A stretch of DNA of 25,241 nucleotides from a virus, in IMG/VR virus record IMGVR_UViG_3300032236_000044, positions 1 to 25,241 of that record. The stretch is one strand, 5' to 3'. The number at the start of each line of letters is the position of its first letter. Position 1 is the stretch's first letter. Below are positions 20,951 through 25,241 of this stretch, in pieces. Position numbers and translations under genes: made by a program. Under the pieces are notes generated by a model. It did no database searches. It was not told the origin of the DNA and saw only the letters and a program-made list of their open reading frames with translations.

Positions 20951-22252
20951 ATGGCTATTCAATCATTCCAAGCACCTACAACTACACCAGTTAAAGGCAC
21001 ATCTTTAGCAGAGATGATGCAGATGGCGCAGTCTGCTCAAGCATTGCAACAGGCTAGACAATTAAATCCTGTACAACTTCAACAAGCAGAACAGGCATTA
21101 GAACAGGCAAAAATTGGAACTGAAAAAGCTAAAAGAACACTAGAGCCAGAAGTATCTAAATCAGAATCTGAGGCCAAAAGACTTAAATTGGTTGCAGAAC
21201 AAACTGGTGTTGATGTTACAAATCATTATGCGAACATTGCTCGTGGAGTTTATGGCGGTCTGCTGACTGATCCAGACTTTCAAAAAGGCGATGCAAAGAA
21301 AATGGTAGAAAAGCTAGATAAAGCAAAAGTGTTTTTAGAAGATGTTGGTATTCCAATGCACGATTCTAAAATGCACGACTCTTTAATCCAAGCAGCCAAA
21401 AGCAATCCAAAAGAAGCGTATCAGTTAATTAAAAATGGCGTACAACAAGCGGGTACAAATGCCGAGCAGTTTGGTCAAGTCAATGCACCTGCGACATATG
21501 TCAATACTGGTCAAATGCAAGTGCCTATTTATCAGTCACCATATCAAGGTGGTGGGCCAGGAAATACTCCTGCAATTCAAAATCAATTGCCACCATCAAC
21601 TCCAACAATAAGTCCAACTGGACAACCTGGTTATCTTGGCGCACAGGGGCAAAAAGGATTTGTGCCTAGTCAATTACCTCCAAACGCAGGAGTTGGTGCA
21701 GAAGATTTAAAACAAGTATTTTCTGATGCACAAACAGCGCAAAACAGAATTGGTTTATTGCAAAACATTAAAGACTTGGCAAATAAATCATTTACTGGTG
21801 TTGGCGGTTCAAGAAAAGAATTTGTTACCGGCATAGCAAATGCAATTGGAGTGCCTGTGTTTGAAATTGAAAAAGCTAACACAGATGTATTGGCTAAAAA
21901 TTCTGCACTTCTTTCACTTGCTGGTGGTAATACCGATTTAGCAAGACAACTTGCTGAAGCTGCAAATCCAAATAAGAAAATGAATGTTGAGGCAATTAAA
22001 GAAGCATCTAATCAATTAATTGCACAAGAAAGATTAAAACAGAAAAAAGCTGAATTTTTACAACCTTTTGCAAATGACCCATTAACATTACAACAAAAAT
22101 CATTAGAATTTGCAAAAATAGCTGATCCTAGATTGTTACAAGAAATGACCCCAGAACAAGTCAAATCTTTAAAACAATCTATGAGTCCTGATGAACGTAA
22201 AGAGTTTGCACAAAAACTAGCAGAAGCTAGAAGATTAGGATTGGTTAAATAA
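20951..22252 (+). CDS. internal virion / DNA-ejection protein (gp20-like position)
   Basis: This 433-residue protein is read from ATG 20951, three bases after the previous stop with RBS AAGGA. An ATG at 20927 in the same frame lacks an RBS and overlaps the upstream gene. Residues 15-75 are a Gln/Ala/Glu-rich coiled coil (LQQARQLNPVQLQQAEQALE and on). A helical region (residues 85-165) follows, then a Pro/Gly/Gln-rich linker (190-255) and a helical C-terminal domain with GVGGSRKEFVTGIANAIGVP and TDLARQLAEAANP. Helical, Gln-rich proteins of this size in this place are ejection proteins in P22-like phages. The position matches gp20 (471 residues), but clear sequence homology cannot be asserted by eye. 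Confidence 0.75.
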   Translation: MAIQSFQAPTTTPVKGTSLAEMMQMAQSAQALQQARQLNPVQLQQAEQALEQAKIGTEKAKRTLEPEVSKSESEAKRLKLVAEQTGVDVTNHYANIARGVYGGLLTDPDFQKGDAKKMVEKLDKAKVFLEDVGIPMHDSKMHDSLIQAAKSNPKEAYQLIKNGVQQAGTNAEQFGQVNAPATYVNTGQMQVPIYQSPYQGGGPGNTPAIQNQLPPSTPTISPTGQPGYLGAQGQKGFVPSQLPPNAGVGAEDLKQVFSDAQTAQNRIGLLQNIKDLANKSFTGVGGSRKEFVTGIANAIGVPVFEIEKANTDVLAKNSALLSLAGGNTDLARQLAEAANPNKKMNVEAIKEASNQLIAQERLKQKKAEFLQPFANDPLTLQQKSLEFAKIADPRLLQEMTPEQVKSLKQSMSPDERKEFAQKLAEARRLGLVK

Positions 22253-24411
22253 TGCCTACATTAGCAGAACTTTGGGATGCTTCAGATACTGGTCTTAAAG
22301 GCGATTTAAATGATCGTCTTGAACAAGCCAAAGAAGCCTATCGTAAGCAATATAACAAAGAGTTGCCTGTTACAAGTGGTTTTCGTACCTATGAACAACA
22401 AGCTGCTCTAGCATCAAAGCCTAATAAATATCCTGTTGCTAAACCAGGCACAAGCGCCCACGAAACTGGTGATGCAGTAGATATTGACTCAAGTGTTCCA
22501 ACAGACTTTCTTAAACAGTTTGGTTTGCATAGACCTATTGCCAATGATGCGGTTCACGTTCAAGTTATGCCAAGTGCCAAGGGGACACAATCATTGGCTA
22601 GTCTTTGGGATCAAATTGACGTTGGTGAGGAACAACCTAAAAAACAACAACAAGAGAAATCTTTATTGCAACGTGCTTTTGAGGAAAGACAAAAAGCTCG
22701 GGATGTATTAACAGGAGTTGGAGAAGCTGGTCTTGCTGCAGCTTCAGGCATGGTTATGCCTTTGGTTGCTGGAGCAAAAGGAATTGTGCAAAGTATCCCC
22801 GAGGCTATTCAAACAAGTCAAGCGCCTGCGCCAATAGCAGAAAAGATTGCATCTAAGTTTTTAGCAGAGCATCCAGGCTATCAACCAACAACCCCACAGG
22901 GTAAAGCATATATTGAAAATATACAAAAGGCTTTTGAGGCTTCTAAACTGCCTCCTGTTATGCCAGAAATTATTGGTCAAACCCCAAATGTAAAACCTGT
23001 ATCTGCTGAAATTAATGAGGCTTTTCAAGCTGCAAAACAACTTAAAAAAGAACCAAGCACATTACCTCAAGCGCAACAATTGGCTATGCAAAATGCAGGG
23101 GCAGCGCAAACAGTTAACAAGACTGTTCTTGACCAGGCAATTGCAAGCGCAACTCCAGAATTAGCTGCAGAACTTAAAACTGTTAATCCTGCTGATTTAC
23201 ATTCGGATGCGTTAGCTAGGCATTTGGAAGCAGATTCTTTGCCAATTCCTGTACGTCTTACCAAAGGTCAAGCATTGCAAGACCCCAATATTATTTCTAG
23301 GGAGCGTAATGAGCGTGGCGTTAAAGAACAATATGTAGAACACTTTAATCAGCAAAACAAAGATTTAATGGCTAATGCTCAAGCTATTAAAGAACGCACA
23401 GCTCCCAATGTATTTACTACTGATTACGTTGATGATGCGGGAAATGCTATTGGTTTTGTAAATGACATTAAGAAAAACAATGTTGAAGCCACAAAAACTG
23501 CTTACAAAGATTTAGAAGCACTAGGTGGTGGAAAGTTTCCTATTGATGCACAAACATTTGGTAAAAATGCTTTGTCTGCATTGTCCAAGGGTGAAGAATC
23601 TGAGTTTTTGCCTGAAGTTTTTAAACGCAGAATAGATGAATATGCAAGTGGCAAAAAAGAAATGAACTTTGACAACTTTGAGAATTTGCGTACACAAATT
23701 GCCAAAGCATCAAGGGCAACAGATGATGGCAACGTGCGCCATGCGTTAAGCGTTGTTAGACAGGAATTAGAAGATATACCTATGCCTGGCGCAACTGCTG
23801 AACTTAAGATTGCAGCAGACAATGCTAGAAGTTTAGCAAAACACGATTTTGAACTAGAAAAAACTAACGATTTATATAATAAAGTTGTTAACGGCAAAGC
23901 GGATACAAAAGACTTTATACAAAACTTTGTTGTAAGGTCTAAAAATGCCGATTTTCAAAATTCACTTAATCTATTAAAAGACAATCCACAAGCCATTGAG
24001 CATTTGCGTTCTGGCACATTGGATTATTTAACTCGTGAAGCCACAGATGCAAGTGGTAATTTTTCTACTGCTAAATTCAATAAAGCTATTAACAAAATGG
24101 ATGTTGATGGCAAATTGGATGCTTTGTTTGGCGGTGATGCACAAATGTTGCGTAATCTGGTTAAAACTGGTCAATATGTAGAGGCTAGACCAAAGGGCGC
24201 ATTTGTTAACGAATCCAACACATTTGTTGCAAGCGCAAAAGCTCTTGCAGCATCAGGATTAGAAAAAGCGTTAAATGCCACAACTGCCAATGTTGTACCA
24301 ATTGGAACAATGGGCAGAGAGGCATTACAAAATCGTGCAATTAAGCAACAAACCAAAGAAGCGCTAAAACCTGGTGCTGGTGTTAAATTATCTGAAATAG
24401 GAAAGCCATGA
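22252..24411 (+). CDS. ejection protein with N-terminal M15-type peptidoglycan peptidase domain
   Basis: This is a 719-residue protein. Residues about 38-106 form a VanY/M15-like zinc peptidase: SGFRT (42-46), SAHETGDAVDID (68-79, with H70 and D77) and D99-x-x-H102 in NDAVHVQV. These match the SxHxxGxAxD and (E/D)xxH metal and catalytic motifs of D,D- or L,D-endopeptidases. LAELWD (4-9) recurs as LASLWD (115-120), flanking the enzyme. Residues about 152-182 are hydrophobic (GEAGLAAASGMVMPLVAGAKG). The rest is helical up to the C-terminus, as in P22 gp16 (609 residues). It is third in the gp7-gp20-gp16 order. A virion-borne lysin that opens the wall during DNA ejection is the best reading. The ATG overlaps the previous stop by one base. 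Confidence 0.83.
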   Translation: MPTLAELWDASDTGLKGDLNDRLEQAKEAYRKQYNKELPVTSGFRTYEQQAALASKPNKYPVAKPGTSAHETGDAVDIDSSVPTDFLKQFGLHRPIANDAVHVQVMPSAKGTQSLASLWDQIDVGEEQPKKQQQEKSLLQRAFEERQKARDVLTGVGEAGLAAASGMVMPLVAGAKGIVQSIPEAIQTSQAPAPIAEKIASKFLAEHPGYQPTTPQGKAYIENIQKAFEASKLPPVMPEIIGQTPNVKPVSAEINEAFQAAKQLKKEPSTLPQAQQLAMQNAGAAQTVNKTVLDQAIASATPELAAELKTVNPADLHSDALARHLEADSLPIPVRLTKGQALQDPNIISRERNERGVKEQYVEHFNQQNKDLMANAQAIKERTAPNVFTTDYVDDAGNAIGFVNDIKKNNVEATKTAYKDLEALGGGKFPIDAQTFGKNALSALSKGEESEFLPEVFKRRIDEYASGKKEMNFDNFENLRTQIAKASRATDDGNVRHALSVVRQELEDIPMPGATAELKIAADNARSLAKHDFELEKTNDLYNKVVNGKADTKDFIQNFVVRSKNADFQNSLNLLKDNPQAIEHLRSGTLDYLTREATDASGNFSTAKFNKAINKMDVDGKLDALFGGDAQMLRNLVKTGQYVEARPKGAFVNESNTFVASAKALAASGLEKALNATTANVVPIGTMGREALQNRAIKQQTKEALKPGAGVKLSEIGKP

Positions 24412-24623
24412 GTACCGAATCACCAATTGACATGTTTAAGTACGGCCAATTGGTCGCAACTGTTGAAACTCTTGAAAAGAAGATCGACAAACTTGAGGTT
24501 TCCGTTTGCCAATTGGTCGAACTTGCAAACCGATCCAAGGGGGGTTTTTGGGTTGGCATGATGGTTGTATCTGGTGTTAGTTCGTTAGTTGGATTCTTAA
24601 CGCATTACCTTACGGTGAAGTAA
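24408..24623 (+). CDS. small coiled-coil membrane protein, possible holin
   Basis: The 71-residue protein is coupled by ATGA to the ejection gene. Residues 9-42 (MFKYGQLVATVETLEKKIDKLEVSVCQLVELANR) form a charged coiled coil. Residues 46-69 (GFWVGMMVVSGVSSLVGFLTHYLT) are one transmembrane helix near the C-terminus. This coiled-coil-then-TM layout resembles XhlA-type hemolysin/holin accessory proteins, which take part in host lysis. No separate endolysin is seen in the window, so the lysis role is tentative. A membrane-bound virion or assembly protein is the alternative. Confidence 0.75.
   Translation: MSTESPIDMFKYGQLVATVETLEKKIDKLEVSVCQLVELANRSKGGFWVGMMVVSGVSSLVGFLTHYLTVK
24614..24618 (+). 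promoter_or_regulatory. RBS-like GGTGA before an ATT start candidate
   Basis: GGTGA, a part of the AAGGAGGTGA consensus, lies six bases before ATT 24625. No comparable site precedes ATG 24646. It supports an upstream, non-ATG start for the next gene. Confidence 0.4.
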
Positions 24624-24645
24624 AATTGATCCTTTTACATTAGCA

Positions 24646-25119
24646 ATGATGGCTTTCTCTGCTGTAAAAAGCGGAGTGGCTGCTTACAAGGAAATTAAAT
24701 CTACTGGCGGTGAAGTAGTCAAGATTGTCAATGAGTTGGGTGGTGCGCTTGGTAGTTTCTTTGACCATCAAGAAAAAGCGCACAAGGAAGCGGAAGAACA
24801 AAAAAAGAATCCTCCCAAAGGTAAGTCATTACAGGCTATTGCATTAGAGAATGTATTGCGTAGAAAGCAATTAGAACAAGCTGAGTACGATCTGAGGCAA
24901 ATGTTGGTATATGAATCCCCGCCTGAACTTGGTGCTGTTTGGACAGAATTTGTAGCAGAACGTCAAAAATTAACGACAGAACAGGCAAAACATAACGCTA
25001 TATTAAAAAAAAAGAACAAGCTAACAAAAGAAGAAGAGCTGAACGGCTGGAGAAATGGAATATTAGAATTGCAATTTGTGTTGCAATCTTGGTGGTCATA
25101 CTCACATTTGCAGTATTGA
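24646..25119 (+). CDS. phage protein read to a frame-0 stop; likely the short form of a -1 frameshift product
   Basis: Frame 0 from ATG 24646 gives 157 residues: a helical N-terminus (FSAVKSGVAAYKEIKSTGGEV), a charged Lys/Glu stretch, then LRRKQLEQAEYDLRQMLVYESPPELGAVWTEF (72-103). It resembles a phage family that normally begins MDPxT and ends in a membrane helix. The upstream in-frame codons ATT-GAT-CCT-TTT-ACA (from 24625) read as DPFTLA before the ATG, so the true start is probably ATT 24625. At 25008-25014 the sequence A AAA AAG permits a -1 slip; frame 0 beyond it is a short tail with no TM helix. Function is unknown; a virion or membrane-associated role is likely. Confidence 0.75.
   Translation: MMAFSAVKSGVAAYKEIKSTGGEVVKIVNELGGALGSFFDHQEKAHKEAEEQKKNPPKGKSLQAIALENVLRRKQLEQAEYDLRQMLVYESPPELGAVWTEFVAERQKLTTEQAKHNAILKKKNKLTKEEELNGWRNGILELQFVLQSWWSYSHLQY
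25008..25014 (+). other. -1 slippery heptamer A AAA AAG in a nine-A run
   Basis: In the frame of the 24646 ORF the codons are AAA AAA AAG (25006-25014), giving the exact A_AAA_AAG heptamer used in E. coli dnaX. The whole A-run covers 25005-25013. No strong stem-loop is evident right after it and no close upstream Shine-Dalgarno-like stimulator. Confidence 0.6.
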
Positions 25120-25241
25120 TGTATGAGATTAATCAAGATTACAAAAACAAGAAAAGCGGACAGGACTGGCACATCATGTTTATGAAACACTATTATGACG
25201 ACTCAATAAACGCAGAATGTGAGCATTTATTCAGACAGACA
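25014..25241 (+). CDS. -1 frame continuation with transmembrane helix, partial at window end
   Basis: From the slip site the -1 frame is open for 76 codons to the edge of the window. It reads EQANKRRRAERLEKWNIRI, then a hydrophobic helix (IAICVAILVVILTFAVLMY, 25068-25124), then a charged tail with HIMFMKHYYDD. The basic flank before the helix followed by an uninterrupted TM segment is what the family's C-terminus should look like. The fused product would exceed 200 residues (130 codons from ATT 24625, plus at least 76). This has no start codon of its own with an RBS, so it is reported as an extension, not a separate gene. Confidence 0.55.

Follow-up and report, generated by a model that had tools for sequence, protein, structure and literature searches.

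A run of nine adenines (A9), kept at the same place in a gene by a family of freshwater bacterial viruses, very likely marks a programmed change of reading frame that gives a soluble and a membrane-anchored product. The evidence for this is comparative, without RNA or protein data. The window, meaning the whole stretch of DNA that was analysed, is IMG/VR virus record IMGVR_UViG_3300032236_000044 and comprises 25,241 bases.

The A9 G slippage site lies at 25005–25014 on the plus strand, with the nine A's at 25005–25013 and the G at 25014; essentially all near relatives keep A9, in one of two registers. Within the site, an A_AAA_AAG heptamer (25008–25014) is in phase with the frame-0 ORF (24646–25119, plus strand), which ends at a TGA (25117–25119) and encodes the first product, a helical soluble domain of ~120 residues with a frame-0 tail of ~35 residues. 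The −1 frame has no stop between a TAA at ~24993 and the end of the window (25241), where it encodes IKKKEQANKRRRAERLEKWNIRIAICVAILVVILTFAVLMYEINQDYK..., and, as read from relatives, it ends ~9 codons past the contig end (..GYWPKYCKD-stop). Its extension (25005–25241, plus strand) provides the second product with KKK, a basic flank, a TM helix and a C-terminal domain containing two conserved cysteines. In most members, a transcript or ribosome shifted into the +1 frame would run into a stop after only one to three codons. The in-frame heptamer and the −1 continuation with a positively charged flank and a TM helix had been described by an earlier sequence-only reading, and all of these facts were confirmed. 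The window is AT-rich, and dinucleotide shuffles predict 2.8 A9 runs per window over both strands; A9 alone is therefore unsurprising, and the case rests on its conservation.

Conservation of the A-run and the −1 tail

The first protein search of viral contigs returned 80 related loci, 78 of which carry A9 G at the same position; one of the others (L049) has ten A's (A10), and one is a fragment cut off before the run. After later scans, which used profiles for the N-terminal part and for the tail, the final set comprised 212 distinct members. Among the distinct members of the window-like groups (n = 137), A9 is present in 131, A10 in two and no run in four (L449–L452). In the 113 aligned relatives, the run is A9 in 112 and A10 in one, and the offset is −1 in all 113. 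Further, all A9 members form one clade with support of 100/100 in a tree of the N-domain, from which later intermediates were left out. Away from the slip site, long A-runs are avoided in the related loci: in the first 80 loci, a further A-run of at least nine occurs just once (in L015), compared with ~34 expected in all under a Markov model, and 8 of 12 long relatives (32–45 kb) have exactly one A9 on either strand.

The A10 of L049 (L049:3359–3368; contig L049/L120) puts both frames into one. It is the only near relative whose ten A's fuse the frames, and a genuine variant and a sequence error cannot be distinguished here.

The −1 tail evolves as coding sequence under purifying selection. 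In related pairs, position 3 of frame 0 takes 70% of substitutions before the run, and position 3 of the −1 frame takes 66% after the frame-0 stop. Where the frames overlap, substitutions are distributed 49/33/18 over positions 3/1/2 of the −1 frame, making −1 the more constrained frame, and amino acid identity is 0.49 in −1 versus 0.37 in frame 0 (higher in −1 in 87% of pairs). The invariant residues of the tail include two cysteines near its end (EC...F..TG..P..C). Downstream of the run, frame 0 shows weak constraint only, and its tail appears dispensable because in L446 frame 0 stops directly after the run (..EKKS-stop); we consider the frame-0 tail a likely by-product.

Relatives that encode the whole protein in a single frame were also found. 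L449–L452 lack the A-run and specify a full-length protein of 215 amino acids with the same TM segment and two-cysteine end (e.g. ..ECWKIVKETNMLPKFCQ), and a more distant group likewise carries the N-domain and TM segment in a single frame; the tail profile of distant single-ORF members matched the window-type −1 tail with an E-value of 7e-9 over 58 columns, ungapped. Because the tail is fused in one frame in both L449–L452 and the distant group, the anchored protein would be the shared product and the soluble form an addition of the A9 lineage. L449–L452 group with the A9-bearing L446 and L445 (support 89/92 and 81/99, not decisive), and it is possible that an in-frame fusion replaced the A-run there or that the change went in the reverse direction. 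The sequence-only reading had proposed a homologue alignment and held that a single continuous frame in close relatives without the A-run would reduce the finding to a sequence error or an ordinary gene. That alignment showed A9 to be conserved in near relatives; L449–L452 and the distant group meet the refuting condition literally, but they show that the fused protein is genuine, and the near relatives of the window uniformly keep A9 with the −1 offset.

Three further observations concern individual relatives. In the distant L238, L281, L292 and L453–L459, another small TM ORF comes next, overlapping in −1; it apparently has its own start and lacks an A-run. The TM tail of L275 lies in +1 relative to the N-domain, unlike in its neighbours, possibly because of an assembly indel. 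L235 resides on a 9.7-kb contig that was assigned to the bin of an uncultured Bacteroidetes genome; this hints weakly at the host, unless the phage was mis-binned.

Route of the frame change and rival explanations

As to how the frame changes, RNA-polymerase slippage at A9 is favoured over ribosomal frameshifting, although only by a modest margin and without proof, there being no RNA data. The preference derives from the two registers, the lack of a conserved Shine-Dalgarno (SD) element or 3′ structure, the length of the run and the weakness of unstimulated heptamers. The run occurs in two codon registers (n = 113), NNA AAA AAA AAG in 21 (the window type) and NAA AAA AAA AGG in 92, and L153, which has A10 and an unchanged frame offset, is a natural intermediate between them. 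In the second register, the strong ribosomal heptamer A_AAA_AAG becomes A_AAA_AAA, and nine A's are still kept. Run length and not codon register is conserved, which meets a criterion of programmed transcriptional slippage; a second criterion, a conserved homopolymer at the frame junction at least some eight or nine bases long, is fulfilled too. In many bacteria, nine A's is also the length at which selection against slippage can be seen (PMC1088944). The criterion of −1 ribosomal frameshifting that an X_XXY_YYZ heptamer lie in the zero frame is met as well (25008–25014; A_AAA_AAA in the other register). The stimulator criterion, which is common but not obligatory, is unmet: no consistent 5′ SD-like match was found among relatives, and no conserved 3′ structure was found downstream (mean folding z-scores of +0.17 and +0.11), where there is only an 8-bp hairpin ~55 nt away. 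In Escherichia coli, heptamers without a stimulator reach at most ~10× a 0.055% background, and A_AAA_AAG is among the best motifs once stimulated (PMC4066793). A search for PF00940 (phage RNA polymerase) gave no match in 12 long relatives and none in control genomes either.

In the best-surviving rival, transcriptional slippage plays no part: programmed −1 ribosomal frameshifting at A_AAA_AAG/A_AAA_AAA would yield the same two products, and we place this reading a little behind polymerase slippage. In its favour, every member has an A_AAA_AAR heptamer in phase; the shift is −1 throughout, and under the GeneTack rule a constant direction points to ribosomal frameshifting (PMC3711429); and E. 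coli RNA polymerase, according to one study, shows little slippage on runs of eight or fewer A's, slightly shorter than the run here (PMC6260861). Against it, most relatives have the A_AAA_AAA phase, neither an SD-like element nor a 3′ stem-loop is conserved, and the conserved length is nine A's, not seven. The earlier proposal of a slip at A AAA AAG as such thus remains unsettled, as most relatives are one base out of register (A_AAA_AAA and then AGG), no stimulator was found and RNA-polymerase slippage is at least as likely.

A second possibility, which we regard as very unlikely, is that the −1 ORF stands as a gene of its own, whose translation would begin either at an internal start or, by termination-reinitiation, at the frame-0 stop, which is conserved (TGATG/TAATG). 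Consistent with this reading, a −1 frame ATG overlaps the frame-0 stop in most members, earlier ATGs exist in some (L067: MERWNIRIA..) and the distant group has a second TM ORF in −1 with its own start. However, 19 of the 113 aligned relatives have no ATG there, a start at the stop-overlapping ATG would lose the TM helix, constraint on the −1 frame extends upstream of the candidate ATGs as well, and the tail is fused in the single-frame relatives.

The two alternatives that the sequence-only reading had itself raised are all but excluded. A homopolymer sequencing or assembly error hiding a true run of ten A's finds support in the one contig (L049/L120) that does carry a frame-joining A10, but exactly nine A's occur in over 100 distinct, divergent sequences, and L153 has ten A's and is nonetheless offset by −1. 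A broken gene or a chance overlap of two frames would fit a single gene showing two frames, but each half is under purifying selection in its own frame across deep divergence, and the frame changes at the identical place everywhere.

Start codon and genomic neighbourhood

Sequence comparison indicates that translation likely starts not at the first ATG but seven codons upstream of it, at an ATT (24625–24627) aligned with the start codon of relatives, which adds (M)DPFTLA (24625–24645, plus strand; ATT GAT CCT TTT ACA TTA GCA). In relatives of groups a and b (n = 84), the aligned start codon is ATG in 28 and ATA, ATC or ATT in 56, and 52 of these 56 rare-start relatives have no other usable in-frame start. 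Among distinct DNA versions bearing rare start codons, 23 of 24 encode DPFTLA with purely synonymous variation, and most rare-start versions have AGGAG, GGTGA or a similar SD-like motif upstream. The gene upstream (24408–24623, plus strand), which encodes a 71-amino acid coiled-coil/TM protein without a Pfam or PHROG match, ends in a TAA (24621–24623) abutting the ATT; this conserved rare start next to the stop of the preceding gene suggests coupled or weak initiation. Nothing relevant on AUU starts in phages was found in the literature searched.

The phage has P22-type portal, head-closure and ejection genes. After the ejection gene comes a 719-amino acid protein (22252–24411) whose N-terminus carries a VanY (D-Ala-D-Ala carboxypeptidase) domain, attached to a long region; it may be a wall hydrolase carried in the virion. 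In the close relative L003, the order is the 719-amino acid VanY protein, the 71-amino acid coiled-coil/TM protein, the slip gene, a holin-like protein and an M15-peptidase endolysin, and L067 keeps the slip, holin-like and endolysin genes in that order. The holin-like neighbour is a hydrophobic protein matching phrog_1544 (function unknown), and we infer its holin-like nature from hydrophobic segments and position, without a family match. Because the slip gene directly precedes the holin-like and endolysin genes in relatives, a role in lysis suggests itself; this is a possibility inferred from gene order only. The position after the ejection and VanY genes and before the holin-like and endolysin genes does not meet the criterion for a tail-assembly chaperone of the G/GT type, which lies between the tail tube and tape-measure genes, and the earlier statement that this is not a tail-chaperone gene thus held.

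A spanin (Rz) was considered as a candidate and rejected; in spanins, a periplasmic coiled coil comes after an N-terminal TM segment or lipobox, and here the TM segment follows a 120-residue soluble domain.

Two-product model and comparison with known systems

Conservation, codon-phase selection and the single-frame relatives all lend strong support to the earlier proposal of soluble and membrane-anchored products from one gene. In the model we propose, the majority of expression would remain in frame 0 and give a soluble, all-helical protein of ~164 residues, and a fraction would shift to −1 and give a fused protein of ~215 residues, extended by the basic flank, one TM helix and a small domain at the C-terminus with the two invariant cysteines. 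From the basic flank, the fused protein is inferred to be N-in/C-out. The switch would occur mainly by transcriptional slippage adding one A; ribosomal slippage on these A's could contribute or act instead. The ratio of soluble to anchored protein could then tune a membrane step at lysis, a possibility that depends on the lysis role inferred from gene order alone. The structure of the fused protein predicted by AlphaFold2 from L049, the natural A10 fusion, is all-helical (pLDDT 82, pTM 0.47), with one long helix continuing through the TM segment, and it has no PDB match with an E-value below 0.8. Pfam and PHROGs searches with the gene, the fused protein and distant members gave no convincing match, and neither the gene nor a frame switch in such a lysis region is described in the open-access literature searched. 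Single-frame gene finders miss the full protein in every such genome.

A bolder reading, which we offer only as a possibility, is that polymerase slippage at A9 sets the soluble/anchored ratio of a lysis-control protein that also starts at a conserved AUA/AUC/AUU; if true, the expression of this one gene would be deliberately imprecise at two levels.

Thermus dnaX, Shigella type III genes and IS transposases are known cases of transcriptional slippage at nine A's or T's (PMC1088944, PMC5009743), and the present gene resembles them in having a conserved A9 within a coding region, an avoidance of long A-runs elsewhere and two products. It differs from them in being a phage gene beside lysis genes, in that the switched product gains a membrane anchor and in that slippage is here only inferred. 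Most of what is known about programmed frame changes in phages comes from tail and capsid genes. With the −1 frameshifting of tail-assembly chaperones (lambda G/GT) and of the T7/T3 capsid genes, our case shares a phage gene, the −1 direction and a short and an extended product, but it concerns neither a tail nor a capsid gene, belongs to a phage with a P22-type portal, extends the protein by a TM anchor and has no stimulator that we could find. Paired forms of a lysis protein are familiar from the lambda S105/S107 holin and antiholin, which arise by a dual start. Similarly, one lysis-region gene would here give two forms that differ in membrane behaviour, but by a frame switch rather than a dual start, with a cytosolic N-domain and without a match to a holin or spanin family. 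Overall, this deeply conserved slip, which lies in an uncharacterised gene beside lysis genes and has an optional membrane anchor as its outcome, suggests that a membrane event may be set in a new way, by a fixed slip rate.
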